This document shows, in pieces, positions 34,810 through 58,342 of a stretch of 64,000 nucleotides of DNA (position 1 is the stretch's first letter; every line of letters begins with the position of its first letter). The stretch comes from Caulobacter sp. FWC2 (GTDB lineage Bacteria > Pseudomonadota > Alphaproteobacteria > Caulobacterales > Caulobacteraceae). The DNA is taken from NCBI RefSeq assembly GCF_002742625.1, contig NZ_PEBF01000001.1:3286001-3350000 (forward strand), read 5' to 3'. The notes beneath the pieces are model-generated. The model was not told the origin of the DNA, did no database searches, and saw only the letters and a list, made by a program, of their open reading frames with translations. A program made the position numbers and the translations under genes.

Positions 34810-34824
34810 TGACACCGGTTTCCA
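34810..34824 (+). promoter_or_regulatory. Uronate-type LacI operator before the hydratase-transporter pair
   Basis: TGACACCGGTTTCCA, a palindrome centred on CCGG. The left half TGACACC is identical to the sites at 50678 and 58329. It lies 77 bases before the hydratase GTG. Confidence 0.65.
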
Positions 34825-34900
34825 CTAGAGACTCCCCAAACCTGTGACCATGGCCCGCCAAGCGGGACCTGTGCCGAATATGCGAGGGAGGACTAGCGGC

Positions 34901-35725
34901 GTGACCGTTTCTGAGGCCGATAGCGAGGTTTTCGCCCCCGCGGCCATTGCTCCCCAATTCGTCAAGGCCCGCCAAGAGGGCGTCAGCGTCCCCGGCTATC
35001 CGGGCGGGGTGATTCCCTCGACCATGGCCGAAGGCTACGCCGTCCAGGATCTGGCCATCGCCGCCTGGCCGGACGAGCTGGTCGGCTGGAAGGTCGGCCT
35101 GGTGCCGCCGCAGCATCGCGAGCGCCTGGGCGTCGACCGCCTGGCCGGCTGCATCTTCAAGTCCAAGGTCCAGGACGCCTCGACCGACGGCCAGCCTAAT
35201 AAATTCCGCGCTATCGACGGCGGCTTCTGCGCCGTCGAGGCCGAGTTCATCGTCCGCCTGGGCAAGGACGCGCCCGCCGACAAGACTCAGTGGACCGCCG
35301 AAGAGGCCGCCGAGTATGTCGGCGAACTGCTGGTCGGCGTCGAGATCGCCGGCAGCCCGCTGAAGACCATCAACGCCCTGGGCCCGACGGTCGTGGCCTC
35401 GGACTTCGGCAACAACGATGGTCAGATCATTGGTCAGGCCATTTCCAACTGGCGTGACATCGCCTGGGAGGATATGCCGGTCGAGACCATCATCAACGGC
35501 AAGTCGCTGGGCACGGCCTCGGCCGCGACCATCCCCGGCTCTCCGCTGGCCGCCCTGGCCTTCCTGCTCGGAACGGTCGCCGCGCGCGGCAAGCCGCTGA
35601 AGAAGGGCATGATCGTCACCACCGGCGCCACCACCGGCATCCACGACGTGGTCGCCGGCGATGTCGCCCATGTAAGCTTCGGCCCGTACGGAACCGTGGA
35701 CTGCATCGCCGTCCCGGCCAAATAA
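34901..35725 (+). CDS. FAH-family 2-keto-4-pentenoate hydratase-like enzyme
   Basis: A 274-residue protein of the fumarylacetoacetase/2-keto-4-pentenoate hydratase family. Conserved features include WKVGLVPPQHRERLGVDRLAGCIF, the acidic metal-binding block GFCAVEAEFIVRLG near 103, GVEIAGSPLKTINALG, and the closing KKGMIVTTGATTGIHDVVAGD. Hydratases of this fold act on 2-keto-enoic acids, and relatives dehydrate 2-keto-3-deoxy sugar acids. I chose GTG 34901 with GAGGGAGG upstream. It is 23 bases before a hexuronate-type transporter and behind a uronate-type operator, so I infer a role in sugar acid breakdown rather than aromatic degradation. Confidence 0.8.
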   Translation: MTVSEADSEVFAPAAIAPQFVKARQEGVSVPGYPGGVIPSTMAEGYAVQDLAIAAWPDELVGWKVGLVPPQHRERLGVDRLAGCIFKSKVQDASTDGQPNKFRAIDGGFCAVEAEFIVRLGKDAPADKTQWTAEEAAEYVGELLVGVEIAGSPLKTINALGPTVVASDFGNNDGQIIGQAISNWRDIAWEDMPVETIINGKSLGTASAATIPGSPLAALAFLLGTVAARGKPLKKGMIVTTGATTGIHDVVAGDVAHVSFGPYGTVDCIAVPAK

Positions 35726-35748
35726 GAAGACCATAAGGGGAAGGACGC

Positions 35749-37029
35749 GTGTCCATGGACTTTTCGAAAGCGCCCGCCCCGTCCGAAAAGATCGGACGGT
35801 ACCGTTGGGTGATCGTCAGCCTGCTGTTCGCGGCGATGGTCATCAACTACGTCGATCGCCAGACGATCGGCCTGCTGAAAGCGGACCTGTCGAAGGAATT
35901 CGGCTGGGACGAGACCCACTACGCCGACCTCGTGTTCTACTTCCAGATGGCGTACGCGATCGCGTACCTGGCCTGGGGCAAGATCATGGACAAGATCGGG
36001 GCCCGCTGGGGCTTCGGCGTCGCGTTCGCGATCTGGCAGATCGCCCACATCGCCCACGCGGCGGCGGCCGGCTTCGGCGGCTTCGTGGCCGCCCGCATGG
36101 GCCTGGGCATCGGTGAAGCCGGCGGCTTCCCCGGCGGCATCAAGGCCGTGGCCGAGTGGTTCCCGAAGAAGGAACGCGCCTTCGCCACCGGCCTGTTCAA
36201 CGCTGGCACCAATATCGGCGCCATCGTCACGCCGCTGGTCGTTCCCGGCATCGTCCTGGCGTTCGGCTGGCAGATGGCCTTCATCGTCACCGGCATCGCC
36301 GGCCTGGTCTGGCTGCCGATCTGGTTGCTGGTCTATCGCCGCCCGCGCGAGCAGAAGAACCTGGGCGCCGCAGAGCTGGCCTATATCGAGCAGGATCCGG
36401 CCGACCCCGTCGAGAAGATCGGCTGGGCCAAGCTGCTGACCAAGCGCGAGACCTGGGCCTTCGCCCTGGGCAAGTTCCTGATCGACCCGATCTGGTGGAT
36501 GTTCCTGTTCTGGCTGCCGGACTTCCTGGGCAAGCGCTACGGCCTGGACCTGAAGTCGTTCGGCCCGCCGCTGATCGCCATCTATCTGCTGAGCGACGTC
36601 GGTTCGGTCGCCGGCGGCTGGATGTCGTCGACCCTGATGAAGAACGGCGCCACCATCAACAAGGCCCGCAAGCTGACCATGCTGGTCTGCGCCCTGCTGG
36701 CCGTGCCGGTGATGTTCGCCGCCAAGGCCGACAGCGTCTGGCTGGCCGTGCTGATCATCGGCGTCGCCACCGCGGCGCACCAGGGCTTCTCGGCCAACCT
36801 CTACACCCTGCCGTCGGACGTGTTCCCGCGCGCCGCGGTCGGCTCGGTCGTCGGTATCGGCGGCATGCTGGGCGCCTTCGGGGGCATGGCCTTCTCGAAG
36901 TACATCGGCAAGGTCCTGGACCAGATCGGCAGCTACACCCCGATCTTCATCGTCGCCGGCAGCGCCTATCTGATCGCCCTGCTGGTCATCCACCTGCTGA
37001 CACCCAAGATGGAGCCGGTGAAGATCTAG
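35749..37029 (+). CDS. exuT: MFS transporter, hexuronate (ExuT)-like
   Basis: A 426-residue, 12-helix major facilitator of the anion:cation symporter group. It opens YRWVIVSLLFAAMVINYVDRQTIGLL, shows the helix 4-5 block RMGLGIGEAGGFPGGIKAVAEWFPKKERAFATGLFNAGTNIGAIV, and is closest in character to hexuronate transporters. It should import galacturonate or glucuronate with protons. The start may be GTG 35749 or ATG 35755, behind AAGGGGAAGGA. It shares a promoter with the hydratase gene, and the upstream operator matches those of the uronate cluster at 48-61 kb. A strong terminator follows. Confidence 0.82.
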   Translation: MSMDFSKAPAPSEKIGRYRWVIVSLLFAAMVINYVDRQTIGLLKADLSKEFGWDETHYADLVFYFQMAYAIAYLAWGKIMDKIGARWGFGVAFAIWQIAHIAHAAAAGFGGFVAARMGLGIGEAGGFPGGIKAVAEWFPKKERAFATGLFNAGTNIGAIVTPLVVPGIVLAFGWQMAFIVTGIAGLVWLPIWLLVYRRPREQKNLGAAELAYIEQDPADPVEKIGWAKLLTKRETWAFALGKFLIDPIWWMFLFWLPDFLGKRYGLDLKSFGPPLIAIYLLSDVGSVAGGWMSSTLMKNGATINKARKLTMLVCALLAVPVMFAAKADSVWLAVLIIGVATAAHQGFSANLYTLPSDVFPRAAVGSVVGIGGMLGAFGGMAFSKYIGKVLDQIGSYTPIFIVAGSAYLIALLVIHLLTPKMEPVKI

Positions 37030-37058
37030 CCGATCGAAACCGCACCGAAACGACGAAG

Positions 37059-37085
37059 GGCCGGGGAGCAATCCCCGGCCTTTTT
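37059..37085 (+). terminator. Intrinsic terminator after exuT
   Basis: GGCCGGGGA-GCAA-TCCCCGGCC followed by TTTTT: a perfect 9-bp stem and T-run, 30 bases after the exuT stop codon. It ends the operon just before the next gene at 37101. Confidence 0.93.
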
Positions 37086-37100
37086 CGTTAGAAGGCGGTC

Positions 37101-38156
37101 ATGGCCGCCTCCCCTCTCCACGTCGCGCCCCTCAAAGTGGCTCTGGTCGGCTACGGCTATGTCGGCAAGACCTTCCACGCCCCGCTGATCGCCGCGACGC
37201 CGGGCCTTTCGTTGCACACGGTAGTGTCCAGCGATCCGGCCAAGGTCGCCGCCGACTTTCCGGACGTCCGCGTCGTCGCCGAGCTCGAGGCGGCCCTGGC
37301 CGATCCCGCCATCGACCTGGTGGTCATCGCCACCCCCAACGCCCTGCACGCGCCCCAGGCGATCGCCGCGCTGAACGCCGGCAAGGCCGTCGTCGTCGAC
37401 AAGCCCTTCGCCGTCACCGCCGCCGAGGCCCAGACCATGGCCGATGCCGCCAAGGCCGCCGGCAAGCTGCTGGCCGTGTTCCACAACCGCCGCTGGGACA
37501 GCGACTTTCTCACCCTCCAGCGCTTGATGGCTGAGGGCGTCCTGGGCGAGATCGTCCAGTTCGAGAGCCATTTCGACCGCTTTCGCCCCGTGGTGCGCGA
37601 CCGCTGGCGCGAGCGGGCCGGCCCGGGCGCCGGCGCCTGGATGGACCTTGGCCCCCACCTGCTGGACCAGTCCCTCGCCCTGTTCGGCCAGCCCCTGGCC
37701 ATCGCCGCCGATATCGGCGTGCAGCGTCACGGCGCGGGCGCGGACGACTATTTCCACGTCACCCTGCGCTATCCGGTCCTGCGGGTGATCCTGCACGGCA
37801 GCCTGCTGACCGCCGCCGCCGACCTGCGCCTGGCCGTCCACGGCACCAAGGCCAGCTTCGTCAAACACGGCCTCGACCCGCAGGAGGGCCAGTTGAAGGC
37901 TGGCATGACTCCGGGCGCGGCCGGCTATGGCGTCGACGCCCGCCCGGGCGTGCTGACCACGGTGGAGAACGACGCCCAGGTCCACGCTCCCGTCCCGCCC
38001 GAACCGTCGGACTATCGATCCTTCTACGCCGGCGTTCGCGACGCCGTACTCCACGGCGCCGCCTCCCCCGTGCCGGTGGAGCAGGCGCTACGGGCGATGG
38101 CGCTGCTGGAACTGGCCCAGCGCGCTTCGGACGAACGGCGAGAGCTGCCGATTTAG
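37101..38156 (+). CDS. Gfo/Idh/MocA-family oxidoreductase
   Basis: A 351-residue NAD(P)-dependent oxidoreductase. The nucleotide-binding start is VALVGYGYVGKTFHAPLIAATPG, with the next block DLVVIATPNALHAPQAIAALNAGKAVVVDKPFAVT (the EKP of the family is DKP here) and the substrate block GAWMDLGPHLLDQSLALFG near 180. It most resembles the YdgJ/IolW subgroup acting on inositols or sugars. It follows the exuT terminator, so it is probably a separate transcription unit, possibly with the next sugar dehydrogenase 51 bases on. Confidence 0.85.
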   Translation: MAASPLHVAPLKVALVGYGYVGKTFHAPLIAATPGLSLHTVVSSDPAKVAADFPDVRVVAELEAALADPAIDLVVIATPNALHAPQAIAALNAGKAVVVDKPFAVTAAEAQTMADAAKAAGKLLAVFHNRRWDSDFLTLQRLMAEGVLGEIVQFESHFDRFRPVVRDRWRERAGPGAGAWMDLGPHLLDQSLALFGQPLAIAADIGVQRHGAGADDYFHVTLRYPVLRVILHGSLLTAAADLRLAVHGTKASFVKHGLDPQEGQLKAGMTPGAAGYGVDARPGVLTTVENDAQVHAPVPPEPSDYRSFYAGVRDAVLHGAASPVPVEQALRAMALLELAQRASDERRELPI

Positions 38157-38207
38157 CCGCCCGAACCGGGTAGCCCCCGCCCCGAAAACCCGCTTAACCT
38201 GCCGCCC

Positions 38208-41641: not shown

Positions 41642-41737
41642 GGCGAAGGCGCCCGTCGACGCGCCCTCCAACGTTCGTGAGGCCGCCTCCGCCCCCAAAC
41701 CTCCCTCCCCCGCCACGAACTCTGCTATCAATTCCCC

Positions 41738-43285
41738 ATGCAGCGCAGGCGAAGCATCCTCATCGTGGGCGGCGGGACGGCGGGGTGGCTGACGGCCGCC
41801 TATCTGGCCAAGGCCTTGCGGGCAGCCGACCGGGGCGACCTGTCGATCACCCTGCTGGAGTCGCCCGACATCGGCATCGTCGGGGTCGGCGAGGCCACCT
41901 TCCCCACCATCCGCAACACCCTGCGGTTCCTGGGGATCGACGAGGCGCGGTTCATTCGCGAGACCTCGGCGACCTTCAAGCAGGGCATCCGCTTCGTCGA
42001 CTGGGCGGAGGCGCCGACGGACGGCCGCCACGAGAGCTTCTTCCATCCGTTCGAGGCGCCGTTCTCGACCGAGGGGACCAGCCTGGCCCCCTACTGGTTG
42101 CTGCAGAGCGAGGCGACGCGCGCGCCGTTCGCCGAGGCGGTGACCATCCAGGCCCGCGTCGCCGACGCCGCCCGCGCGCCCAAGCGGCCGCACGAGAGCG
42201 ATTTTTCGGGCCCGCTGAACTACGCCTACCACTTCGACGCCGCCAAGCTGGCCCAGGTGCTGGCCGAGCGGGCTCGCGAGCTGGGCGTGCGCCACCTGCG
42301 CGGCGCCGTCTCCGACACGATCCTGGACGAGACCGGCGCCATCGCCCGGATCACGTCACCCGAGCATGGCGAACTGACGGCCGACCTCTATGTCGACTGC
42401 TCGGGCTTCCGCGCCGAGCTGATCGGCAAGGCCCTGGGTTCGCCGTTCAAGTCGGTCAAGCCGATCCTGTTCGCCGACCGGGCGCTGGCCTGCCATACGC
42501 CCTATGAGCGCCCCGACGGGCCGATCCAGAGCTACACGGTCGCCACCGCTCACGAGGCCGGCTGGATCTGGGACATCGGCCTGGTCGGCGCGCGCGGCGT
42601 CGGCTGCGTCTATTCCAGCGACCACATGGACGACGCCCGCGCCGAGACGGTGCTGCGGGACCATGTGGGCGGGGCGAAGATCGAGGCCCGCAAGATCAGC
42701 TTCGACGCCGGCTATCGCGAGCAGCAATGGATCGGCAACTGCGTCGCGGTGGGCCTGTCGGCCGGCTTCCTGGAGCCGCTGGAATCCACCGGCGTGGTGC
42801 TGATCGAGGCGGCCGTGGCGATGATCGCCGAGCTGTTCCCGCACAACGGCCCGGTCAGCGCCCCGGCCCGGCGCTTCAACGCGCTGATGGCGGCGCGCTA
42901 TGACAACATCATCGTCTTCCTGAAGCTGCACTACGCGCTCAGCCGCCGGACCGAGCCGTTCTGGCGCGCGAACCGGGATCCCGCCTCGATCCCGGAGCGG
43001 CTGGCCGAGCTCTTGGAGCAGTGGCGCTATCGGCCGCCGGCGCGGTTCGACTTCATCTTGGATCTCGAGACCTTCGCCTTCTTCAACTACCAGTACATTC
43101 TCTACGGTATGGGCTTCAAAACCGACCTGGGCGACGCCGCGGGCGAGTTCCCGGACGTGGCCGCGGCCGCCAAGCTGTTCGCCAAGATCCGCGGCTTCGC
43201 CGACCGCGCCACTCAGGACCTGCCCAGCCACCGCGACCTGATCGCCCAGATCAATCGCTTCGGCTTCGCGCCGGAGCAGGTCTAG
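41738..43285 (+). CDS. Flavin-dependent tryptophan halogenase-like protein
   Basis: A 515-residue flavoprotein of the tryptophan 7-halogenase family. The FAD-binding start is ILIVGGGTAGWLTAAYLAKAL, then VGVGEATFPTIRNTLRFLGI, the catalytic Lys near residue 81 (TSATFKQGIRFVDW), and the EPLESTG block near 350 that holds the active-site Glu. The hallmark GWxWxIP appears as GWIWDIG near 275, with Pro replaced by Gly. Such proteins are abundant in Caulobacterales, often near TonB receptors, and their true substrates are mostly unknown. Here the neighbours are a serine hydrolase and an ArsR-type gene. Halogenase activity should not be assumed. Confidence 0.85.
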   Translation: MQRRRSILIVGGGTAGWLTAAYLAKALRAADRGDLSITLLESPDIGIVGVGEATFPTIRNTLRFLGIDEARFIRETSATFKQGIRFVDWAEAPTDGRHESFFHPFEAPFSTEGTSLAPYWLLQSEATRAPFAEAVTIQARVADAARAPKRPHESDFSGPLNYAYHFDAAKLAQVLAERARELGVRHLRGAVSDTILDETGAIARITSPEHGELTADLYVDCSGFRAELIGKALGSPFKSVKPILFADRALACHTPYERPDGPIQSYTVATAHEAGWIWDIGLVGARGVGCVYSSDHMDDARAETVLRDHVGGAKIEARKISFDAGYREQQWIGNCVAVGLSAGFLEPLESTGVVLIEAAVAMIAELFPHNGPVSAPARRFNALMAARYDNIIVFLKLHYALSRRTEPFWRANRDPASIPERLAELLEQWRYRPPARFDFILDLETFAFFNYQYILYGMGFKTDLGDAAGEFPDVAAAAKLFAKIRGFADRATQDLPSHRDLIAQINRFGFAPEQV

Positions 43286-45776: not shown

Positions 45777-46028
45777 ATGAAGGTCCTGACGAGCCGCGAA
45801 TTCAACCAGGATGTCAGCCAGGCCAAGCGCGCGGCGCGACTCGAGCCGGTGTTCGTCACCGACCGCGGCCGGCCCACCCACGTGCTGATGAGTGTCGAGA
45901 CCTACCGCCGGCTGAGCGGCCAGACCGAGACCATCGTTGACCTCCTGGCCATGCCCGGCGTGGCGTCGATCGACCCGCCGCGCTCGACCGAGACCTGGAG
46001 CCGCTGGGAAGCGGAGGACGGCGGCTGA
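45777..46028 (+). CDS. Phd/YefM-family antitoxin
   Basis: An 83-residue antitoxin. The N-terminal DNA-binding half is MKVLTSREFNQDVSQAKRAARLEPVFVTDRGRPTHVLMSVETYRRL, the Phd/YefM fold; the acidic, aromatic C-terminal tail (STETWSRWEAEDGG) is the part expected to block the toxin. Its stop codon overlaps the toxin start (TGATG). It should repress its own promoter at the repeat 35 bases upstream. Confidence 0.9.
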   Translation: MKVLTSREFNQDVSQAKRAARLEPVFVTDRGRPTHVLMSVETYRRLSGQTETIVDLLAMPGVASIDPPRSTETWSRWEAEDGG

Positions 46029-46528
46029 TGCACCTGCTGGACACCGACCTCGTCTTCGAGCTGCGCAACGCCAAGGCGGGCGCGACCGATGCGGGCCTGG
46101 CCGCCTGGGCCGGCGCGGCGCCGCGCTCCAGCCTGTTCATCTCGGCCCTGACCCTGCTGGAACTGGAGACGGCGGCGGCCCGCGCCGAGCGCAGGGACAA
46201 GGTCCAGGGGCCTCGACTGCGCGAATGGCTGGACAGCCGCGTGCTTCCCGCCTTCGACGGCCGCGTGCTGGCGATCGACGCCGCCGTGGTCCGCCGCCGG
46301 ACCCATGTTCCGCTGACGGACGGTCGCGACGCCCTGCTGGCCGCCACCGCCCTGGAGCACGGCCTGACCCTGGCCACGCGCGACACGGCCACCTACGCCA
46401 AGGTCCCGCGCCTGAAGCTGTTCAATCCCTGGGGCTTCAAGCCCGAGGCGCTGGACGACGACGAGGACTGGGGCCAGGCCGCCAAGGCCGGCACGCAGTG
46501 GCTGCGCAACATCTTCGTCCGGGGCTGA
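46028..46528 (+). CDS. vapC: PIN-domain toxin (VapC/FitB type)
   Basis: A 166-residue PIN-domain ribonuclease. Acidic metal ligands are visible as LLDTDLVFEL near 3-12, the second Glu in SALTLLELETAAA near 38-50, and DGRDALLAATALEHGLTLATRD near 97-118. It likely cleaves tRNA or rRNA to stop growth when the antitoxin is lost. The C-terminal extension beyond the PIN core (residues 130-166, with an acidic run) is longer than in many VapC. It partners with the Phd-type antitoxin. Confidence 0.88.
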   Translation: MHLLDTDLVFELRNAKAGATDAGLAAWAGAAPRSSLFISALTLLELETAAARAERRDKVQGPRLREWLDSRVLPAFDGRVLAIDAAVVRRRTHVPLTDGRDALLAATALEHGLTLATRDTATYAKVPRLKLFNPWGFKPEALDDDEDWGQAAKAGTQWLRNIFVRG

Positions 46529-48512: not shown

Positions 48513-49619
48513 CTAGCGAATGACCCGCGCGCCCTTGCCCTTCATCACGGCCTCGACTTCCGCCTGGCGCACCATCGAGGTGTCGCCCGGGGTGGTCATG
48601 GCCAGGGCGCCGTGGGCCGCGCCGTACTCGACGGCGGCCTGGGGACCCTTGCCTTCCATGAAGCCGAAGGCCAGGCCCGAGGCGAAGCCGTCGCCGCCGC
48701 CGACGCGGTCATAGATCTCGAGGTTCTCGCGCATCATCGAGGCGTAGAACTCGCCGCCGGCGTACAGGATCGCCGACCAGTCGTTGACCGAGGCGGTCTT
48801 GGCGTTGCGCAGGGTGGTGGCGGCGACCTTGAAGTTCGGGAACTGCTTCACAGCGGTCTCGATCATCTTCTTGAAGTTGGCCGGGTCGATCGAGCTGATG
48901 TGCTCGTCCAGGCCCTCGACTTCAAAGCCCAGGCAGGCGGTGAAGTCTTCTTCGTTGCCGATCATCACGTCGACATACTGGGCGATGTGACGGTTGACCT
49001 TCTGCGCGCCTTCCTTGCCGCCCTGCGACTTCCACAGCGAGGCGCGGTAGTTCAGGTCGTAGGAGATGACGGTGCCGTACTTGCGGGCGACTTCCACGGC
49101 TTCGATCACGGCTTCGGCCGTGTTCGAGGCCAGGGCCGCGAAGATGCCGCCGGTGTGGAACCAGCGCACGCCTTCTTCGCCGAACAGCTTTTCCCAGTTC
49201 ACTTCACCGGGGCGGATCTGCGAGGCGGCCGAGTGACCCCGGTCCGAGCAGCCGAGGGCCGGACGAACGCCGAAGCCCTTTTCGGTGAAGTTCAGGCCGA
49301 CGCGGGTGTTGCGGCCCAGGCCGTCGAAGTCGCGCCAGATGACGTGCGAGGTGTCGACGCCGCCTTGCATCATCAGGTCCTCGACCAGCCAGCCCAGGTC
49401 GTTGACCGGCAGGGCCGTGACGGCGGTCGAGCGCTTGCCCCAGCACTTCTTGAAGGCGCGGGCGACGTTGTATTCGCCGCCGCCTTCCCAGACCTGGAAC
49501 TGGCGGGCGTTGCGAACCCGGCCGAAGCCCGGGTCGAAGCGCAGCATCACTTCACCGAAGGACGCGCAGTCCCACTTGGTTTCCGAAGCCGGGCGGATGT
49601 TGAGGATATTGTCGGTCAT
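48513..49619 (-). CDS. kdgK: 2-keto-3-deoxygluconate kinase (PfkB family)
   Basis: A 368-residue ribokinase-family sugar kinase. The start GEVMLRFDPGFGRVRNARQFQVWEGGGEYNVA carries the PfkB substrate loop. The catalytic block is DRVGGGDGFASGLAFGF near 313 (GGGD in place of the usual GAGD, catalytic Asp kept). It phosphorylates 2-keto-3-deoxy-D-gluconate to KDPG, the joint end of the galacturonate, glucuronate and pectin routes. It follows eda with the start codon immediately after the eda stop codon, so the two form one operon. Confidence 0.88.
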   Translation of the reverse strand: MTDNILNIRPASETKWDCASFGEVMLRFDPGFGRVRNARQFQVWEGGGEYNVARAFKKCWGKRSTAVTALPVNDLGWLVEDLMMQGGVDTSHVIWRDFDGLGRNTRVGLNFTEKGFGVRPALGCSDRGHSAASQIRPGEVNWEKLFGEEGVRWFHTGGIFAALASNTAEAVIEAVEVARKYGTVISYDLNYRASLWKSQGGKEGAQKVNRHIAQYVDVMIGNEEDFTACLGFEVEGLDEHISSIDPANFKKMIETAVKQFPNFKVAATTLRNAKTASVNDWSAILYAGGEFYASMMRENLEIYDRVGGGDGFASGLAFGFMEGKGPQAAVEYGAAHGALAMTTPGDTSMVRQAEVEAVMKGKGARVIR

Positions 49620-50297
49620 TTAGGCCTTCCCACGAACCTTCTTGATCAGGTCAACAGTCTCGCGGACCTTCTTGGTGATGCCCGCGTAGTCCTTGGCGTC
49701 CAGCAGCTCTTGCGTGATCAGCTTGGAGCCCATGCCGGCGGCGACGATGCCCGCGCCGAACCACTTCTTGACCGAGGCTTCGTCCGGATCGACGCCGCCC
49801 GTCGGCATGATGCGGGTCCAGGGCATCGGGCCCAGCACCGCCTTGACGAAGTCCGGGCCGCCGACCGACGAGCCGGGGAACACCTTGACGATCTCGCAGC
49901 CCAGTTCTTCGGCGTACGAGATTTCCGAGGCCGAACCGCAGCCCGGCGAATACGGGATCTTGCGGCGGTTGCAGACCTTGGCGACGTCGGCGTTGAGGAT
50001 CGGGCCGACGACGAACTTGGCGCCGTTGGCGATGTAGATGCCGGCGGTCGGGGCGTCGACGATCGAGCCCACGCCCATGATCACGCGCGGATCGGCCTCG
50101 TGGAAGTAACGGGTCACTTCGTAGAAGACGTGGCTGGCGAAGTCGCCGCGGTTGGTGAACTCGATGCAGGGCGCGCCGCCGTCGGCGCAGGCCTGGATCA
50201 CGGCCTTACAGACCTCGACGTCCGGGTGATAGAAAACCGGGATGACACCCTGGTCCATCAGGGCGGTCAGCACCGCCATACGGTCTTTTACCATCAT
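49620..50297 (-). CDS. eda: KDPG aldolase (2-dehydro-3-deoxyphosphogluconate aldolase)
   Basis: A 225-residue class I aldolase cleaving KDPG to pyruvate and glyceraldehyde-3-phosphate. The conserved Glu lies in APCIEFTNRG near 48, the Schiff-base Lys in CEIVKVFPGS near 138, and the phosphate loop in MPTGGVDPDEASVKKWFGAG near 160. The start is ATG 50297 with GGAAGGAG upstream. First gene of eda-kdgK, preceded by a leader of several hundred bases containing three ACCGGT-centred sites. Confidence 0.93.
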   Translation of the reverse strand: MMVKDRMAVLTALMDQGVIPVFYHPDVEVCKAVIQACADGGAPCIEFTNRGDFASHVFYEVTRYFHEADPRVIMGVGSIVDAPTAGIYIANGAKFVVGPILNADVAKVCNRRKIPYSPGCGSASEISYAEELGCEIVKVFPGSSVGGPDFVKAVLGPMPWTRIMPTGGVDPDEASVKKWFGAGIVAAGMGSKLITQELLDAKDYAGITKKVRETVDLIKKVRGKA

Positions 50298-50501: not shown

Positions 50502-50677
50502 GCTAAATCTCTGGTCTCGTTTCCATCCCCGAACGTTTTTCCTTCGGCCGCCTCGCCCCGCTCCAGACGCAAAAGTGAGGGCGCCGGTATGACCCGACGC
50601 CCCGGAAGTTTGCGCAGGAGCGAGCTCAAAGAGCCGCGAACGAAACGGACCGACCACGACGCCGAACCGAAACGTCT

Positions 50678-50691
50678 TGACACCGGTGTCA
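50678..50691. promoter_or_regulatory. LacI-type operator 1 upstream of eda-kdgK
   Basis: TGACACCGGTGTCA, a perfect 14-bp palindrome, the best copy of the motif in the window. It lies 381 bases upstream of eda, the nearest gene reading away from it. Confidence 0.7.
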
Positions 50692-50721: not shown

Positions 50722-50735
50722 CGCCACCGGTGTCA
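50722..50735. promoter_or_regulatory. LacI-type operator 2 upstream of eda-kdgK
   Basis: CGCCACCGGTGTCA: right half GGTGTCA perfect, left half 5 of 7. The centre lies 44 bases from the operator at 50678. Confidence 0.55.
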
Positions 50736-50808
50736 TGAGGAGATAACCAGAAACCGCCAGGGAGCGCAAGCGCCGTTGGGAGGGGAAATCGCGAGCGCTA
50801 ACCGTTTG

Positions 50809-50869: not shown

Positions 50870-53599
50870 TCAGCCCGTATTCCGCAAGCCCGCCGCGATG
50901 CCGGCCACGGTCAGCTGGATGGCCAGGCGCAGCTCCTCGTCGGCCTCCCCTGCCCGGCGGCGCGACAGCAGTTCCAGCTGCAGGTGGTTCAGCGGGTCCA
51001 CCGAACGGCTGGCCAGGGTCACCGACTCGGCTAGGTCCGGCTGGTTGTCGAGCAGGCTCGAACCGCCCCGGATCTCCAGGGCGATGCGCGAGGCCGCGTC
51101 GTGTTCGCGCTGGATGGTCGCGAAGATGCGCTCGGCATTGGCCTTGTCCGGCGACAGGGCCGTGTACCGGGCCGCGATGCCCATGTGGCTCTGGGCCAGG
51201 GCCAGCTCCATGTTCGACAGCAGCGAGGCGAAGAAGTCGAAATTGCCGGCCAGGTCGCGCAGTTGCTCGACCGACAGGTTGGCCCGCTCGACGCCCGAGG
51301 CGAAACCGTACCAGCCCGGCAGCATGAATCGGGCCTGCGACCAGGAAAACACCCACGGGATGGCCCGCAGGTCCTCGATCTTGCGGCTGGCGGTGCGGCT
51401 GGCCGGACGGCTGCCGATGTTGAGGCCCACGATCTCGCTGATCGGCGTGACCGACCAGAAGAAGTCCTCGAACGCCGGATCGTCGTACACCAGGGCGCGG
51501 AAGCCGTGGAACGACGCCTCGGCCAGGGCGGTCATGGCCGCCTCGACCTTGGGATCGGGCTTTTGGACCGGGCGCTCGCTGGACATCAGCACGGCGGCGG
51601 CCAGGCCGTCGAGGTTGCGGCGGGCGGTGGGCTGGTCGCCGAAGCGGCGGGCGATCATCTCGCCCTGCTCGGTCATGCGGATGCGGCCCTGCACGGTGCC
51701 GGCCGGCTGGGCCAGCACGGCCTCGGCGGCGGGACCACCGCCCCGCCCGACGCTGCCGCCGCGACCGTGGAACAGCTGCAGGCCGACGCCCATCCGGTCG
51801 GCCTCGAACGCCAGGGCCGAGGCGCCGCGCGCCACACCCCGGCGGCTGGCGACGTACCCGCCGTCCTTGTTGCTGTCGGAGTAGCCGAGCATGATTTCCT
51901 GCACCGGCCGGTCGCCCAGGATGGTCCGCGACAGCGGCAGTTCCAGCCACTGGCGCAGCACGGCGGGGCCATTCTCCAGGTCGCCGATGGTCTCGAACAG
52001 CGGTGCAACCTTGACCGAAGCGCGCGGCGCCGCCCCGCCCCAGACCATCCCGACCTGCTTGAGCAGGACCAGCGGCTCGAGGATGTCCGACAGGGTCGCG
52101 GCCTTCGAGATGATGTACGCCCCGATGCAGCCATGGCCGTAGTCGCGAACCGCCTGGGCGGCGGCGCTCATCGTGGCCAGCTCCTTGGTCGTCTCCTCGC
52201 TATAGGCGGTGAACGGCGAGACCAGGGGGCGCTGGTGCGACAGCTCCTCGATCAGGACCTTGCAGCGGGCCTCCTCGTCGAGCTTGAGGTAGGAGACGCC
52301 CGTACCGGCCCGTTGGAACAGCTCGTCGACGGTCCGTTCGTGGACGTCGGCGTTCTGGCGCAGATCGAGGCTCATCAGGTGGAAGCCGCAGGCCTTGGCC
52401 ACCTCAACCAGGGTGCGCAGGGTCGAGCCGACCAGACGCTCGCCGCCGTTGCGCTCCAGGCTGTCGATGATGACGGTCAGGTCGGCGACGAAAGCATCCG
52501 GATGACCATAGGCCTCGACCTCGGTGGCGCCGGTGGCGTAGGCGACCGGCGCGCCGGTCAGCTTCTGCGACACGGCGGTCAGGCGGTCGAAGACCAGCTC
52601 CAGCGCCAGGCGATAGGGCTCGTCAAGACGATGGATCGACGGATCACGGGTCTGGGCGGCCAGGGCCAGCAGCTCGTTCGAGACCGGCGTATAGGCGGTC
52701 GAGACGGCGAGATTGGACCACAGCTTGCGCACCTCACCGGCGTACCAGTCGAGGATCACCCGGGACTGGCTGGCGAAGGCCAGCTTCAGGGTCTCGCCAT
52801 TGACGCCGGGGTGGCCGTCGCGGTCGCCGCCCAGCCAAGAGCCCATCTTCAGCAGCGGCGCGAGGTGACCGTGCGAGCCGATCTTGGCCGTCCAGTCGCC
52901 ATACAGGTCGATGATCGCCGGCAGGATCGAGGTGCGGACGATCGACAGGGCGTTGCGGATCTCGTCCTTCACGGTGATGCGCTCGGGACGGTACAGGCGG
53001 GTGCGCCACATCAGGGCGATCTCGCGGAACAGGCCCTCGCGGATCTCGGCGTCCAGGTCCGGCGGCAGGTGGTGGCGGCGCAGCGCCATCAGGCGCGAGA
53101 TCTCGGTCTCGCGGTCGACCATGCTGCGGCGACGGACCTCCGTCGGGTGGGCGGTGAGAACCGGCACCACGTTCATGGCGGCGAAGACCTTGGCCAGCTC
53201 CGCGTCGGTCTTGCCGTGGGCCTTCAGCACCTTGACGGCGTCGATCAGGGTGCGCGGACGCTCGTCGCCCGGCTGGGCGTCGGCCTCGGCGTGGCGGCGG
53301 CGGCCGGCGACGTCCTCGCCGATATTGGCCAGCAGCGAGTGGCTGGCGAAGGCGCGGGCCAGAAACACGGCCTGGTCGTTGCTGAGGTCGGCGAACAGGT
53401 GGTCGAGGACCGGCGAGTCGCCGGTCTCCTCGTCCTCGCGAGAGGCGGCCTTGCGGGCCTTGGCCACCAGGGCGGCGGCCTCCTCGCCCTCAAGGTAGGT
53501 GATCGCCTCGCTCAGGAGGTCGCTCAGCAGGTTGGCGTTCTGGCGGACGTGACGGCTGGTGGGACGGTCGACATCGATCGACAGGGCCGGATTGCGCAT
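50870..53599 (-). CDS. ppc: Phosphoenolpyruvate carboxylase
   Basis: A 909-residue enzyme adding bicarbonate to PEP to give oxaloacetate, refilling the TCA cycle. Conserved blocks are VLTAHPTEVRRR near 148 with the catalytic His, GSWLGGDRDGHPGVN near 240, MLGYSDSNKDGGY near 560, and the mobile loop FHGRGGSVGRGGGP near 600. The C-terminus is conserved through AIQLTVAGIAAGLRNTG. Length is typical. The start has a GGAG ribosome binding site. It splits the uronate genes but has no operator of that type before it. Confidence 0.96.
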   Translation of the reverse strand: MRNPALSIDVDRPTSRHVRQNANLLSDLLSEAITYLEGEEAAALVAKARKAASREDEETGDSPVLDHLFADLSNDQAVFLARAFASHSLLANIGEDVAGRRRHAEADAQPGDERPRTLIDAVKVLKAHGKTDAELAKVFAAMNVVPVLTAHPTEVRRRSMVDRETEISRLMALRRHHLPPDLDAEIREGLFREIALMWRTRLYRPERITVKDEIRNALSIVRTSILPAIIDLYGDWTAKIGSHGHLAPLLKMGSWLGGDRDGHPGVNGETLKLAFASQSRVILDWYAGEVRKLWSNLAVSTAYTPVSNELLALAAQTRDPSIHRLDEPYRLALELVFDRLTAVSQKLTGAPVAYATGATEVEAYGHPDAFVADLTVIIDSLERNGGERLVGSTLRTLVEVAKACGFHLMSLDLRQNADVHERTVDELFQRAGTGVSYLKLDEEARCKVLIEELSHQRPLVSPFTAYSEETTKELATMSAAAQAVRDYGHGCIGAYIISKAATLSDILEPLVLLKQVGMVWGGAAPRASVKVAPLFETIGDLENGPAVLRQWLELPLSRTILGDRPVQEIMLGYSDSNKDGGYVASRRGVARGASALAFEADRMGVGLQLFHGRGGSVGRGGGPAAEAVLAQPAGTVQGRIRMTEQGEMIARRFGDQPTARRNLDGLAAAVLMSSERPVQKPDPKVEAAMTALAEASFHGFRALVYDDPAFEDFFWSVTPISEIVGLNIGSRPASRTASRKIEDLRAIPWVFSWSQARFMLPGWYGFASGVERANLSVEQLRDLAGNFDFFASLLSNMELALAQSHMGIAARYTALSPDKANAERIFATIQREHDAASRIALEIRGGSSLLDNQPDLAESVTLASRSVDPLNHLQLELLSRRRAGEADEELRLAIQLTVAGIAAGLRNTG

Positions 53600-53715
53600 G
53601 CACGAACTCCAGGAGCGGCCGGGGCCGTTCGGGACGGAAAGGGATCACGAGAAAGCGTCGGCGACGCAGGATCGATCCCGGCCGCTAACGCTGCGGCGCC
53701 CTCTAGCGCGCTTCA

Positions 53716-53737
53716 CCGGGCGGGAAAACCCGCCCGG
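53716..53737. terminator. Strong hairpin between kduD and ppc
   Basis: CCGGGCGGG-AAAA-CCCGCCCGG, a perfect 9-bp stem, 46 bases after the kduD stop codon. No T-run follows in either direction, so it may be a processing or partial termination site. Confidence 0.4.
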
Positions 53738-53782
53738 CACGATGGTTGCGCTACCATCGCATTTTTGCGTGGATTTGTTTCG

Positions 53783-54553
53783 TTAGCGCGCCAGCCAACC
53801 GCCATCCACGGGCAAAGTAATGCCCTGGACGTAGTCAGCGGCCGACGAGGCCAGGAACACAGCGGCGCCGCCGATGTCCTCCGGACGCCCCCAGCGGCCG
53901 GCCGGGATGCGAGCCAGAATCGAGGCGTTGCGGTCGGCGTCGGCGCGCAGGGCTTCGGTGTTGTTGGTGTCGAAATAGCCCGGCGCGATGGCGTTGACGT
54001 TGATGCCCTTGGCCGCCCACTCGTTGGCCAGGATCTTGGTCAGGCCGGCCAGGCCCGACTTGGCGGCGGTGTAAGACGGGACGCGGATGCCGCCCTGGAA
54101 CGAGAGCAGCGAGGCGATATTGATCACCTTGGCGGTCACGCCGTTCACGGGACCCTGCTTCAGCGCCTGCTTGGCGAACGCCTGGGTCAGGAAGAAGACG
54201 ACCTTCAGGTTGGTGTCCATCACCGCGTCCCAGTCGGCTTCCGAGAACTCGATCGAGTCGGCGCGACGGATGATGCCGGCGTTGTTGACCAGGATGTCGA
54301 CCTTGCCGAACGCGGCCACGGTCTCATCGACAACGCGCTGCACGGGCTCGGTCGAGCCGAAGTCGGCCTTGATCGAAAGGAACTTGCGGCCCAGGGCCTC
54401 GACGGCTTTCTGGGTCTCGGTCGGCTCACTGCGGCCCGCGGCGGCGATGTCCGCGCCGGCGGCGGCCAGGGCGACGGCGATCCCTTGCCCGATGCCGGTG
54501 TTAGCGCCAGTGACGAGCGCGACCTTGCCTTCGAGGCTGAACGGATTGGCCAT
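53783..54553 (-). CDS. kduD: 2-dehydro-3-deoxy-D-gluconate 5-dehydrogenase
   Basis: A 256-residue short-chain dehydrogenase. Cofactor site VALVTGANTGIGQGIAVALAAAGADI, NNAGI near 90, and the catalytic Ser and YxxxK as INIASLLSFQGGIRVPSYTAAKSG near 145-165. The start MANPFSLEGKVALVTGANTGIGQ is typical of KduD. It reduces 3-deoxy-D-glycero-2,5-hexodiulosonate to KDG with NAD(P)H, after KduI. Third gene of uxaC-kduI-kduD, separated from kduI by a palindromic repeat. Confidence 0.88.
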   Translation of the reverse strand: MANPFSLEGKVALVTGANTGIGQGIAVALAAAGADIAAAGRSEPTETQKAVEALGRKFLSIKADFGSTEPVQRVVDETVAAFGKVDILVNNAGIIRRADSIEFSEADWDAVMDTNLKVVFFLTQAFAKQALKQGPVNGVTAKVINIASLLSFQGGIRVPSYTAAKSGLAGLTKILANEWAAKGINVNAIAPGYFDTNNTEALRADADRNASILARIPAGRWGRPEDIGGAAVFLASSAADYVQGITLPVDGGWLAR

Positions 54554-54581
54554 GGTGCTGATTTCCTGATCCTAAATCTTG

Positions 54582-54692
54582 TCATCCCGGAAGCCTCGAA
54601 GAGGCTGTCCGGGACCCGGGGGCCGGCGCACTGCCAATGGCCCCTGGGTCCCGGGTCTACGCTTCGCTCCGCCCGGGATGACAAGCTAAGAG
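54582..54692. repeat. Palindromic repeat inside the uxaC-kduI-kduD operon
   Basis: CTTGTCATCCCGG and CCCGGGATGACAAG form the outer arms, with inner GGGACCCGGGGGCC and GGCCCCTGGGTCCC. It fills the 156-base gap between kduI and kduD, and could stabilise upstream mRNA or reduce kduD expression. Confidence 0.75.
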
Positions 54693-54709
54693 CGGATGAC
54701 CTCGCGGTC

Positions 54710-55552
54710 CTACTTCAGCTGGCAGATGTCCAGCACGTTCATGTCGGTATAGTCGAGGTTCTCGCCACCCATCGCCCAGATGAAGGTGTAGTTGGCGGTG
54801 CCCGAGCCCATGTGGATCGACCACGGCGGGCTCATCACGGCTTCCTCGTTGGCGATGACGATGTGACGCATCTCGTCCGGCTCGCCCATGTAGTGGAAGA
54901 CCCGGTCGTTCTCGCCCAGACCGAAGTAGAAATAGGCTTCCGAGCGGCGGTCGTGCAGGTGGGGCGGCATGGTGTTCCAGACGCTGCCCGGCTTCAGCAC
55001 CGTCATGCCCAGCAGCAGCTGAGCCGACTTGCAGGTCGTCGGGACGATGTACTGGTAGATCGTGCGCTCGTTGCTGGTCTCCAGCGCGCCGCGCTCCAGG
55101 GCCACGGCATCGGCGAAGGCCAGCTTCTTGGTTTCGAACGAAGCGTGAGCCGGCAGGCTGACCAGGTAGAAGCGCGCGGCGGCGCCGTCGACGCCTTCGA
55201 AGGTCACGTCCTTGGCGCCCATGGTGACGTACAGGCCGTCACGCGGAACGATCTCATAGACAACGCCGTCGACGGTGATCTTGCCGGTGGTCTCGCCCAC
55301 ATTGATCACGCCCAGTTCGCGGCGCTCCAGGAACGGGTGGCCGGCGGCCGAGGCCGGCTGGGTCTGGTCGGGCAGCTTGACGGCGGCGGTGGCCACGACG
55401 CCGCCGACGACAAAGCGTTCGGCGTGGTTGTAGGTCAGGACGATCTGGCCGTCCTGGAACAGGCCGTCCATCAGATAGCGCTCGCGCAGGTCGTCATTGC
55501 TGACCGCGAACATCATGTCCGGATGGGTGGCGTGGTAGGTCTTGGCGAACAT
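54710..55552 (-). CDS. kduI: 5-dehydro-4-deoxy-D-glucuronate isomerase
   Basis: A 280-residue cupin-fold isomerase. KduI signatures are [39 protein letters not shown], and the metal site [18 protein letters not shown] near 197-214 with two His and one Glu, followed by a final His in [18 protein letters not shown]. It converts 4-deoxy-L-threo-5-hexosulose uronate, from unsaturated pectin oligomers, to the substrate of KduD. Second gene after uxaC, 24 bases downstream. Confidence 0.93.
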
Positions 55553-55576
55553 CGGGAAGTCTCCGGAAAGGTGTTC

Positions 55577-57040
55577 TTATTCGGCGGCCGCGCGCAGCGT
55601 GGTGGGGCGAGCCCAGTCCGGACGCTGGTCGAGCTTGTAGGCCTTCTTAGGCAGGTTGTACGTCAGATCGACGATCAGCTCCTCGGCCTCGACCAGGTCC
55701 ATCCGGTGCTCGGCGACCATGCGGGCGAGGAACGAGGAGTCGACGCGACGCGCCACGTCGTGGCGGGCCGGGATCGACAGGAAGGCGCGGGTGTCGTCGT
55801 TGAAGCCGACGGTGTTGTAGAAGCCGGCGGTCTCGGTGACCTGCTCGCGGAAGCGCATCATGCCTTCCGGGCTGTCGTGGAACCACCAGGACGGACCCAG
55901 CTTCAGCACCGGATAGTGGCCGGCCAGCGGGGCCAGCTCGCGGCTGTAGACGGTCTCGTCCAGGGTGAACAGGATCACCGACAGGCGCGGATCGTTGCCC
56001 AGGCGGCCCAGCAGCGGCTTCAACGCCGAAACGTACTCGGTGCGCATCGGGATGTCGGCGCCCTTGTCGCGACCGTGCGACGCCAGCAGGCCGGCATTGT
56101 GGTTGCGGTGAGAGCCCGGGTGGATCTGCATGACCAGCCCATCGTCCAGGCTCATCTTGGCCATTTCGGTCAGCATGTGGGCGCGGAACAGCTCGGCCTT
56201 TTCAGGCGTGACGTCACCCTTCACCAGGCTCTGGAAAAGCGCCTCGGCCTCGACGTCCGACAGGTCGGCGGTGGCGGCCGTCGGGTGGCCGTGGTCGGAC
56301 GAGGTGGCGCCGGCGTCGATAAAGGCCGCCCGGCGCAGGCGGTGCGCTTCGAGGTAGCTCTTCCAGCTGTAGACGTCCTGACCCGACACCTCGGCGAAGC
56401 GTTCGAAGGCGCGCGGGCTACGCTCGTCCTCGAAGTCGATGACCGCGTCGGGACGGTAGGCGGTGATGACGTGGCCGCCCCACCCGCTCTCGCGGATGGC
56501 CTGGTGGTGCTTCAGGCTCTCGTGCGGCCCCTCGGTGGTGGCCAGGGTCTCGATGTTGAAGCGGTCGAACAGGGCGCGCGGGCGGAAGGCGTCCGTGGCG
56601 AGGGCTTCGTTGATGCGGTCGAAATAGTCGTTGGCGTTCGAGGCCTCGAGGAACTCGGTGAAGCCGAACACCTTGGAGAACACGTGGTTCAGCCAGATCC
56701 ACGACGGCGTGCCGCGGAAGAGGTGGAAGTTGCTGGCGAACAGCTTCCAGGCCGCGCGCGGATCGGTGTCCGGAACACCGGCCTTGGAACGCACCTTCAG
56801 CGCGTCGAGGCTGATGCCCTGGCTGTAGAGCATACGGTAGAGATAGTGGTCCGGCGCCAGCAGCAGGTCGGTGGCGTCCTGGAAGGGCTCGTTCGTGGCG
56901 AACCACGACGGATCGGTGTGCCCGTGCGGGCTGATGATCGGCAGGTCCTTGACCAACGCATACAGGCCACGCGCGTAAGAGCGCGTCGTGGCGTCCGCCG
57001 GAAACAGGCGATCCTCGTGGAAATTCAGCGGTCTGGGCAT
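55577..57040 (-). CDS. uxaC: Glucuronate/galacturonate isomerase
   Basis: A 487-residue amidohydrolase-fold uronate isomerase. Typical parts are LPIISPHGHTDPSWFA near 33 (metal His pair), DLLLAPDHYLYRMLYSQG, LATTEGPHESLKHHQAIRESGW near 168, GLVMQIHPGSHRNHN near 308, and FLARMVAEHRMDLVEAEELI at the end. It converts D-glucuronate to D-fructuronate and D-galacturonate to D-tagaturonate. First gene of the leftward operon with kduI and kduD, with the uronate-type operator 60 bases before it. Confidence 0.95.
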   Translation of the reverse strand: MPRPLNFHEDRLFPADATTRSYARGLYALVKDLPIISPHGHTDPSWFATNEPFQDATDLLLAPDHYLYRMLYSQGISLDALKVRSKAGVPDTDPRAAWKLFASNFHLFRGTPSWIWLNHVFSKVFGFTEFLEASNANDYFDRINEALATDAFRPRALFDRFNIETLATTEGPHESLKHHQAIRESGWGGHVITAYRPDAVIDFEDERSPRAFERFAEVSGQDVYSWKSYLEAHRLRRAAFIDAGATSSDHGHPTAATADLSDVEAEALFQSLVKGDVTPEKAELFRAHMLTEMAKMSLDDGLVMQIHPGSHRNHNAGLLASHGRDKGADIPMRTEYVSALKPLLGRLGNDPRLSVILFTLDETVYSRELAPLAGHYPVLKLGPSWWFHDSPEGMMRFREQVTETAGFYNTVGFNDDTRAFLSIPARHDVARRVDSSFLARMVAEHRMDLVEAEELIVDLTYNLPKKAYKLDQRPDWARPTTLRAAAE

Positions 57041-57099
57041 TCTACGCTTCCTCTTCCCAACGTCAGGACGGCCTCGCAGCGGGCTGTCGTGACGCGCTT

Positions 57100-57113
57100 G
57101 GTAACCGGTGTCA
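57100..57113. promoter_or_regulatory. LacI-type operator before uxaC
   Basis: GGTAACCGGTGTCA (with T before it, TGGTAACC), the same motif as at 58329 read in the other direction. It lies in the gap between the LacI gene end (57158) and the uxaC start (57040). Confidence 0.7.
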
Positions 57114-57157
57114 CGACGCGTTGCAAGAAAGGAGGCAGGCGTCGCGGCGGGTTGTCC

Positions 57158-58234
57158 TCAGGACTTCGGCGGCGCGGCCGAGGACTCCCGCAGGACAAGA
57201 TACGGGATCGTGCTGGCGGGATCACGCGCTTCGCGATTTTCCCGTCCGATCAGCTTTTCGGCGGCCATACGGCCAACCTCCCGCGTCGGGATGTGGATCG
57301 TGGTCAGCGGCGGCCACACGGCTTGGGCGATCTGGAAGTCGTCGAAGCCGACGACGGTCAGATCCTCGGGCACCCGCAGCCCCGCGCGCCGCGCCGCCTG
57401 CAGCGCGCCGGCGGCCATTTCGTCGTTGCCGCAGAAGATGGCGGTGGGACGCGGCTCCATGGCCAGCAGCGCCTCGCCGCACGCCAGGCCGGACTCGAAG
57501 GTATAGGCGCCCTGGACCACATAGTCGGGCTTCAACTCGACCCCGGCCTTCTGGAGCACATCCTCAAGCCCGCCCCTGCGTTCGTGCGAGGACCGGAAGT
57601 TGGGCAGACCGCTGATGAAGCCGATCAGCGTGTGACCCAGGTCGATCAGGTGCTGGCCCATCACCTCCCCGCCCATGCGGTCGTGACCGACGATCATGTG
57701 CTCGGGCTTGTCCAGCTCGACCGAGGCGATGCGGATATAGGCGCAGCCGATCTCGTTCAGCAGCTTGGCGACCCGCTCGTCCTCGGACACCGACGGCGGC
57801 AGCACGACGCCGAACAGCTTCTGGCGCTCCACGAAGGCGCGGATGTCGGTCAGGAAGGTCGGGCTGGCGCGGTTGCAGGGGTGAACGACCAGCTCGAAGC
57901 CCGAACCGCGCATGCCGTCCAGCAGGCCCAGCTGCATGTTGACGACATATTGCGGGTTGGGGTTGTCGTAGATCATGCCGATCAGGAACGAGCGGCGGAA
58001 CGCCAGGCCCCGCGCCTGCGGATCGGGCGCATAGCCCCACTCGGCGATCACCGCCTCGATGCGCTCGCGCGTCTCGTCACGAACGAAGGGAGACTGGTTG
58101 ATGACGCGTGAAACGGTCTTCTTGGACACCCCGGCAAGCCTGGCGATGTCGTTGATCGTGGCTCGCTTGCGACCACCCTCGACGCTGCTCTCTGGATCTT
58201 CCGGGGACGAGGAAGGCGTCTTCGAAGAGTTCAC
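57158..58234 (-). CDS. LacI-family transcriptional regulator of uronate use
   Basis: About 358 residues. Ser/Pro-rich start, then the helix-turn-helix ATINDIARLAGVSKKTVSRVINQSPFVRDETRERI with the hinge helix RGLAFRRS, and a periplasmic-binding-protein-like effector domain (YVVNMQLGLLDGMRGSGFELVV...PTAIFCGNDEMAAGAL...TVVGFDDFQIAQAVWPPLTTI). I chose GTG 58234 with GGAAA upstream; an in-frame TTG at 58297 is possible. It is divergent from uxaA across a motif copy, and followed by another before uxaC, so it is the probable reader of the shared palindrome. Likely inducer: a uronate or KDG-type intermediate. Confidence 0.88.
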   Translation of the reverse strand: MNSSKTPSSSPEDPESSVEGGRKRATINDIARLAGVSKKTVSRVINQSPFVRDETRERIEAVIAEWGYAPDPQARGLAFRRSFLIGMIYDNPNPQYVVNMQLGLLDGMRGSGFELVVHPCNRASPTFLTDIRAFVERQKLFGVVLPPSVSEDERVAKLLNEIGCAYIRIASVELDKPEHMIVGHDRMGGEVMGQHLIDLGHTLIGFISGLPNFRSSHERRGGLEDVLQKAGVELKPDYVVQGAYTFESGLACGEALLAMEPRPTAIFCGNDEMAAGALQAARRAGLRVPEDLTVVGFDDFQIAQAVWPPLTTIHIPTREVGRMAAEKLIGRENREARDPASTIPYLVLRESSAAPPKS

Positions 58235-58328
58235 GGCGTTTCCAAGCAGCTTTAAGCGTTGTCTTTTGTCATACTCTAGCCGCGCTGGCGTCGCCAACCT
58301 AGGACGAAACGCCCGCTTTTGGGGTGAC

Positions 58329-58342
58329 TGACACCGGTTACC
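58329..58342. promoter_or_regulatory. LacI-type operator between the regulator gene and uxaA
   Basis: TGACACCGGTTACC (then A). It is between the divergent LacI gene and uxaA, 95 bases from one start and 55 from the other, and could repress both. Confidence 0.7.

Follow-up and report, generated by a model that had tools for sequence, protein, structure and literature searches.

Sites and genes of the window

The window analysed here is a 64,000-nucleotide stretch of the Caulobacter sp. FWC2 genome (contig NZ_PEBF01000001.1, positions 3,286,001 to 3,350,000 of the forward strand), which carries genes for uronate breakdown, five palindromic sites and a gene for a LacI-family regulator that is predicted to act on these sites. 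On the minus strand, the regulator gene (57158..58297 of the window; Pfam LacI, start codon uncertain) is followed by uxaC (55577..57040; PRK02925, 5.7e-173), kduI (54710..55552; PRK00924, 4.8e-117) and kduD (53783..54553; TIGR01832, 9.4e-128). On the plus strand, a uxaA-like gene of the altronate/galactarate dehydratase family (58397..59905; Pfam GD_AH_C, 8.6e-99) precedes a gene for a uxaB/uxuB-like tagaturonate/fructuronate reductase (59992..61440; no NCBIfam cutoff reached). Beyond kduD, again on the minus strand, lie ppc for PEP carboxylase (50870..53599), a neighbour shared with the loci L033 and L034, then eda for KHG/KDPG aldolase (49620..50297; NCBIfam PRK07114, 4e-113) and a kdgK-like sugar kinase gene (48513..49619; no NCBIfam cutoff reached). 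A further plus-strand group consists of a gene for a 274-amino-acid protein (34901..35725) and an exuT-like MFS transporter gene (35749..37029). The 274-amino-acid protein belongs to the fumarylacetoacetate-hydrolase superfamily and resembles 2-keto-4-pentenoate hydratase (NCBIfam PRK11342, 3e-13, at 49.7 bits versus a cutoff of 350; PDB 1sv6, 8.1e-9; Pfam FAA_hydrolase, 1.1e-5). To our knowledge, the established uronate pathway contains no step for a hydratase- or FAH-type protein of this kind.

A motif scan allowing up to three mismatches to the reference palindrome TGACACCGGTGTCA confirmed the coordinates of all five sites named in a preliminary description of this DNA. The perfect palindrome lies at 50678..50691 on the minus strand, and a second operator with two mismatches (50722..50735, minus strand) follows at a distance of 44 nucleotides (nt). 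The site at 34810..34823 (TGACACCGGTTTCC, plus strand, two mismatches), conserved before orthologues of the 274-amino-acid protein, has its strong half upstream. Three mismatches each were counted at 57100..57113 before uxaC (minus strand, TGACACCGGTTACC in the coding sense) and at 58329..58342 between lacI and uxaA (plus strand, strong half upstream of uxaA). The last two sites stand on either side of the LacI-family gene, as had been described, and the ppc gene and a toxin-antitoxin pair were indeed found among the unrelated genes between the loci, the pair being a Phd/YefM antitoxin with a PIN toxin at 45777-46528. The claim that every site lies upstream of uronate genes holds for 57100 (uxaC) and 58329 (uxaA); it does not hold for the 50678/50722 pair, which is separated from the eda open reading frame (ORF) by 380 and 424 nt, respectively, with a conserved RNA-like unit in between. 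The first gene after 34810 is the one for the 274-amino-acid protein, not the transporter gene.

Five such sites could be chance matches in a GC-rich genome. The chance expectation in the window is 2.17 sites (standard deviation, 1.54), and at least five were reached in 6 of 100 shuffles; therefore, the site count by itself is weak evidence. A matrix was built from the five window sites alone, with its mirror matrix as a control. At 14 bits or more it found only these five in the window, a circular result for the five themselves, and the mirror matrix found none. In the 5.5-Mb genome (two contigs), TGACACCGGTGTCA occurred at 36 places with up to two mismatches versus 6 for the reversed pattern, and the half-site TGACACCGGTNNC had 19 matches versus 2 for the reversed control. 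All five sites share an ACCGGT center and are thus even palindromes with a central CG, which is the rule for LacI-family operators (PMC4052901).

Operator conservation and the LacI-family regulator

Upstream regions were scanned for relatives of eight proteins, with the window's own loci and those with too little upstream sequence set aside. At 14 bits or more, the operator occurred upstream of uxaC at 46/46 loci, of uxaA at 44/44, of the 274-amino-acid gene at 52/53, of relatives of the L112 TonB receptor at 37/41, of pectate lyase at 21/27 and of eda at 24/32, with a single mirror-matrix match each for uxaA and the receptors and none for the others. At this threshold neither exuT itself (0/32 loci) nor the GH88 gene (0/27 loci) had an operator of its own, and the mirror matrix also gave 0 for both. 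The operator of the 274-amino-acid gene before exuT is kept as far as Luteimonas. Eighty lacI loci were further examined, comprising 35 from Caulobacter, 23 others, mostly alphaproteobacterial, and 22 from Luteimonas/Lysobacter and other gammaproteobacteria; matrix sites numbered 127, 83 and 45 in these groups, versus 3, 1 and 1 for the mirror matrix. These footprints in relatives rule out a chance origin of the five sites, and together with the co-occurrence of motif and regulator described below they leave that explanation next to no probability.

At uxaC, uxaA and the 274-amino-acid gene, the best sites of 14 bits or more share one polarity in 142 of 142 cases, with TGACACC, the strong half, on the upstream side and the weaker half on the downstream side; polarity is mixed for the receptors, eda and pectate lyase. 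Before the 274-amino-acid gene, a putative promoter (TTGTCA, 17 nt, TAGAGA; 34803..34831, plus strand) can be read from the sequence with the operator filling its spacer, and TTGTCA with the operator recurs in most Caulobacter rows (34 of the 53 rows listed). The weak operator half may double as a part of the promoter. As an independent operator, the weak-half palindrome GGWAACCGGTTWCC was rejected, as it was not enriched (44 versus 51 in the control). Adjacent operators up to 120 nt apart formed 68 non-redundant pairs, 55 of which were spaced 30-35 nt and most often 32-33 nt; the 50678/50722 pair is one of four spaced 44 nt. Spacing peaks of 13, 22 and 32 bp are given for LacI-family tandem sites (PMC4052901).

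The protein encoded at 57158-58297 carries a LacI helix-turn-helix at residues 46-91 (Pfam PF00356, 1.8e-20) and a C-terminal periplasmic-binding-protein-like sensor domain (PF13377, 1.4e-37), and none of the listed NCBIfam models reached its cutoff. Judged by this protein, Caulobacter supplies the nearest named relatives. Among 149 genomes of the family, 82, including that of the window, have an orthologue (best E value of 5e-100 or less) and 67 do not, the best match among the latter being 3.8e-77. Half-site matches averaged 13.65 in genomes with the orthologue (reversed control, 1.13) versus 1.13 in those without it (control, 0.94), and at least four matches were found in 81/82 versus 3/67 genomes. 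The contrast holds within genus g3 (means of 7.7, n = 15 with the orthologue, and 0.9, n = 12 without) and within genus g7 (12.1, n = 7, and 0.8, n = 20), and hence shared ancestry alone is insufficient to explain the co-occurrence, although the statistic is not tree-corrected.

The genome encodes 14 LacI-type proteins, so that one of the other paralogues might bind the operators instead. The helix-turn-helix of one paralogue is indeed encoded (genome position 4047874) 279 bp from a similar site, AGACACCGGTGTCG. However, the co-occurrence within genera follows the orthologue of the window LacI protein, and operators flank the lacI orthologue even in the distant L060 (54% identity). Moreover, the recognition helix SKKT, present in 78 of 80 aligned orthologues (SKRT in one, while one locus ends before the helix), was found in none of the other 13 LacI-type proteins. 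Control by a different regulator is therefore very improbable. Co-occurrence, footprinting and the SKKT helix also bear out the earlier idea of one LacI-family regulator for the sites, and given footprint conservation and regulator co-occurrence, it is well supported that the protein at 57158-58297, by its predicted binding, controls these operators as one regulon. The site AGACACCGGTGTCG at C1:4047595 itself lies between a TonB receptor gene and the gene of the paralogue, whose helix is SPKT, and cross-talk is possible there.

Outside the window, 33 places matched with up to two mismatches, and the neighborhoods of 18 of them and of three half-site places were examined. TonB-receptor loci stand beside the sites at genome positions 1467042, 1478218 (with GH88 and rhamnosidase genes), 4687332/4687364 (a pair) and 1333973 (where the receptor comes behind the gene for a 624-amino-acid protein); other neighbors are genes for a pectate lyase (3502791), an alginate lyase with GH88 (4023661), a carboxylesterase (716413) and the LacI paralogue with a receptor (4047595). 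Conservation was tested at five of these places: 4687332 with 4687364, 3502791, 4023661, 1478218 and 1333973. The site of a second TonB receptor (1478405) was kept in 7/7 relatives scanned at 79% identity or more; with own and distant receptors counted as well, the total was 39/41 rows. The site at 1333973, before a 624-amino-acid gene, was kept in 4/4 close relatives and 0/14 more distant rows. The preliminary description had expected a compact regulon with a local repressor; instead, conserved sites precede TonB-dependent receptor and pectate lyase genes 0.16-1.9 Mb away, and the regulon is therefore chromosome-wide. The 624-amino-acid protein (C1:1333960; L103, L274-L290) has no Pfam or NCBIfam match, and in about 10 relatives a GH88 gene is located no more than about 6 kb from its gene. 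At C1:533200, GGAAACCGGTTTCC occurs about 500 nt before another TonB receptor gene, as it also does in three relatives (L265, L268 and L270).

Several points weigh against this regulon. The conservation counts refer to loci, not to independent genomes; the loci are related, and some species apparently enter twice. Equal abundance of the motif in unrelated intergenic regions had been proposed as a refuting test, and some matches do precede unrelated genes (bipA, rpoD, chemotaxis/HSP70, a LamG/biotin-carboxylase gap) or sit in coding sequence; on the other side, two TonB-receptor sites and the pectate-lyase site are conserved. The alginate-lyase/GH88 site at 4023661 was rejected as a conserved member (0/27 for GH88 at 14 bits, 0/5 close relatives for the lyase). 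Finally, three genomes (G042, G080 and G090) have 4-6 half-site matches without the regulator, and G078 carries the regulator including its SKKT helix with only 2 matches. With these points considered, we still regard it as very probable that the LacI protein, by predicted binding and repression, represses a chromosome-wide pectin/uronate regulon.

An RNA-like unit between the operator pair and eda

Downstream of the operator pair, an RNA-like module was recognized at 50571..50663 on the minus strand. It consists of a hairpin (GCGGCUC-UUU-GAGCUCGC), a core (UCGCUCCUGCGCAAAC in the RNA; TCGCTCCTGCGCAAAC at 50608-50623), a GC-rich hairpin (50579-50603) and a short T run (50571-50574). Conserved boxes in the alignment, TTGCGC (50764-50769) and TTATCT (50741-50746) separated by 17 nt, form a promoter-like element for this unit (50741..50769, minus strand). 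The core was found in 24/24 Caulobacter lacI loci holding eda, exact in 22 and with one change in L013 and L030, and also in L003, where eda is cut off. Both operators and element are present in L001 and L021, two loci of C. vibrioides. In the alignment of 24 rows, UCGCUCCUGCGCA of the core was invariant in every row and 99.5% of the cells were paired. Fold z scores in four rows were -5.5 (module 50571..50663), -2.7, -5.0 and -4.0. The three module frames were stop-free in 5, 0 and 5 of 26 rows, and codon scores were negative in every frame; thus, the module looks non-coding.

Of the 32 eda loci scanned, the 24 Caulobacter lacI loci all have the site, and in the other 8 eda follows a receptor gene with the operators lying before the receptor. 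An alternative assignment, which retains the earlier view that the operators control eda, takes the element as part of eda-kdgK, whose 5′ leader would then be long and carry a terminator acting as an attenuator. The element lies on the eda strand upstream of eda and has a terminator-like hairpin, and the negative result of a strict terminator scan would make read-through possible. The stretch between module and eda, however, varies in length and sequence among relatives and is followed by a separate conserved promoter-like block (TTGACG...GCGGTCTAAGG) starting about 150 nt before eda. A conserved promoter region of its own thus seems to serve eda-kdgK. Furthermore, in another clade of Caulobacter a core and hairpin that match come after the stop codon of a receptor gene. 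The edd gene of Caulobacter lies in another operon. This operon is named zwf-pgl-edd-glk, without eda, in PMC4052901. If eda also serves glucose catabolism, its own promoter makes sense. We consider the leader unlikely and lean toward the pair at 50678/50722 controlling a short RNA-like transcription unit, not eda directly.

Some results weigh against such an RNA. Strict sigma-70 promoter and strict terminator scans of the unit found nothing, and covariation is slight, with changes on both sides in 1/17 pairs. The covariance model matches receptor 3′ untranslated regions (UTRs) weakly (28 bits or less) and on both strands, so that the matches partly reflect a mere GC-rich hairpin. A pairing scan of 222 start regions against 20 shuffled seeds gave no signal above the shuffles. 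In the row of the window itself, one frame is free of stops; the codon score of this frame is strongly negative.

The core also occurs at receptor loci. In 2.67 Mb of sequence searched, the exact core, with one or two T in the middle, occurred 30 times: 27 occurrences lay at the spot before eda, including four overlapping copies of the place in the window, and 3 lay in 3′ UTRs of the receptor that is under operator control and immediately precedes eda (L146, L148 and L269, of which L146 and L269 are the same place). Core variants were found in the receptor 3′ UTRs of L147, L149, L150, L152 and L154, and a looser variant in L151. The gene order is ppc, two operators, module, eda and kdgK, without a receptor, in the window lineage; ppc, two operators and receptor in L033/L034; and two operators, receptor, core, eda and kdgK in L146, L147, L148, L150, L152 and L154. 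An operator pair before a related receptor also occurs in L042, L043, L046, L049, L052, L070 and three Maricaulis loci.

In a LacI tree of 43 rows with a midpoint root, in which the order of forks among groups is open, a single branch (97/95) separated the 16 module-bearing rows from the others, another (95/94) set apart four receptor-core rows (G100 counted without a check of its eda neighbor) and L033/L034 formed a third group. Because receptors behind operator pairs lie on several sides of the module group, the simplest reading, though not proof, is that the window lineage lost the coding sequence of the receptor. As judged from these comparisons, we regard the element as a probable small RNA under LacI control, of predicted expression, and as a probable remnant of a TonB receptor's transcription unit. 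Going further, a tentative proposal, to which we give somewhat less than even odds, is that the receptor gene lost its coding sequence and kept its promoter, operator pair and 3′ UTR; that uronate would induce the remnant as a small RNA whose core is anti-Shine-Dalgarno-like, a matching RNA being released from the receptor mRNA in another clade; and that translation of other mRNAs would in this way come under the influence of the repressor during pectin use. In L141, L143 and L144, CCUCCCC stretches (UUUCCUCCCC in L143 and L144) follow the receptor stop codon, ahead of a terminator-like hairpin, and are close to the core of the alphaR8 small RNAs.

Proposed mechanism and relation to known systems

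Repression by a LacI dimer at promoter-overlapping operators, with release by a pathway intermediate, is standard for the family. Starting from the observed sites, their conservation and their co-occurrence with the regulator, we infer binding, repression, effector and operon structure as follows. The dimer would bind TGACACC-GGTnnCn operators overlapping promoters and thereby repress uxaC-kduI-kduD, uxaA-uxaB, probably lacI itself, the 274-amino-acid gene with exuT, several TonB-dependent receptor genes and pectate lyase. An intermediate of uronate breakdown would release the repressor; our guess for the effector is 2-keto-3-deoxygluconate, where the two branches meet. The operator pair at 50678/50722 would control the RNA-like unit, i.e., the remaining promoter, operators and 3′ UTR of a TonB-receptor unit. 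We assign this explanation as a whole, LacI regulon plus RNA-like unit, a probability of roughly 0.78. The regulon of the preliminary description is thus real and more extensive than supposed there, and the double site had been assigned wrongly.

The known LacI-family uronate regulators, published as six groups under the names ExuR, KdgR, UxaR and UxuR (Ravcheev et al. 2014, PMC4052901), share with the present system the protein family, an even palindromic site with CG at its center, the tandem arrangement of sites and the link to uronate genes. Caulobacter is named there, in the part of the article available, for the GluR and BglR regulons only, and no TonB-receptor or RNA target is mentioned, unlike in the regulon described here. 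Carbohydrate utilization loci with TonB receptors, common to Xanthomonas and Caulobacter (Blanvillain et al. 2007, PMC1790865), likewise combine repressor, inner-membrane carrier, TonB receptor and catabolic enzyme; their members lie together and no such motif is given in the accessible text, whereas the members here are dispersed over the chromosome. A literature search limited to accessible text found neither TGACACCGGTGTCA nor a description of this regulon, and shorter forms of the palindrome matched unrelated work only.

With MmgR and with SisA-D, the alphaR8 small RNAs described from C. crescentus (Vogt et al. 2025, PMC12559287), the RNA-like element has in common a weak hairpin and a single-stranded anti-Shine-Dalgarno-like stretch, and it has a terminator-like hairpin where they have a terminator. 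It has UCGCUCCUGCGCAAAC in place of their core UUUCCUCCCU, which is absent; the Rfam suhB/mmgR model (RF00519) scores it 20.6 bits versus a gathering score of 41, and the alphaR8 covariance model gave no match at the gathering score in six relatives' loci. Because of the low score and the missing core, its assignment to alphaR8 was rejected. No conserved motif is reported upstream of sisA-D in the available text (PMC12559287). The window also holds a suhB/mmgR (alphaR8) small RNA at 1769-1843 (minus strand, 59 bits), adjoining a malate synthase gene and likely a sibling of SisA-D, and a gene for a tryptophan-halogenase family protein (41765-43285).

Small RNAs derived from 3′ UTRs form a class of their own, and the element resembles them in that a matching element stands at the end of a protein-coding gene in another clade of Caulobacter; it differs in that the coding sequence is gone here while promoter, operators and 3′ end are kept. 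The recA 3′ UTR RNA CCNA_R0132 is a named example (PMC6237742). The accessible text of the literature searched, including PMC12559287, PMC11005374, PMC6237742, PMC4287350 and PMC4117421, contained no RNA at the ppc-eda place, supplementary tables lying outside the search. One of these papers lists a dataset of 133 C. crescentus noncoding RNAs; since that dataset lay outside the search, the transcript may already be annotated.

The regulon provides a testable map of the way in which an oligotrophic model genus links uronate breakdown to the uptake of pectin fragments across the outer membrane. Should the RNA unit prove to be expressed, it would represent a traceable birth of a small-RNA gene through loss of a protein-coding sequence, with the other states of the locus surviving in living relatives.

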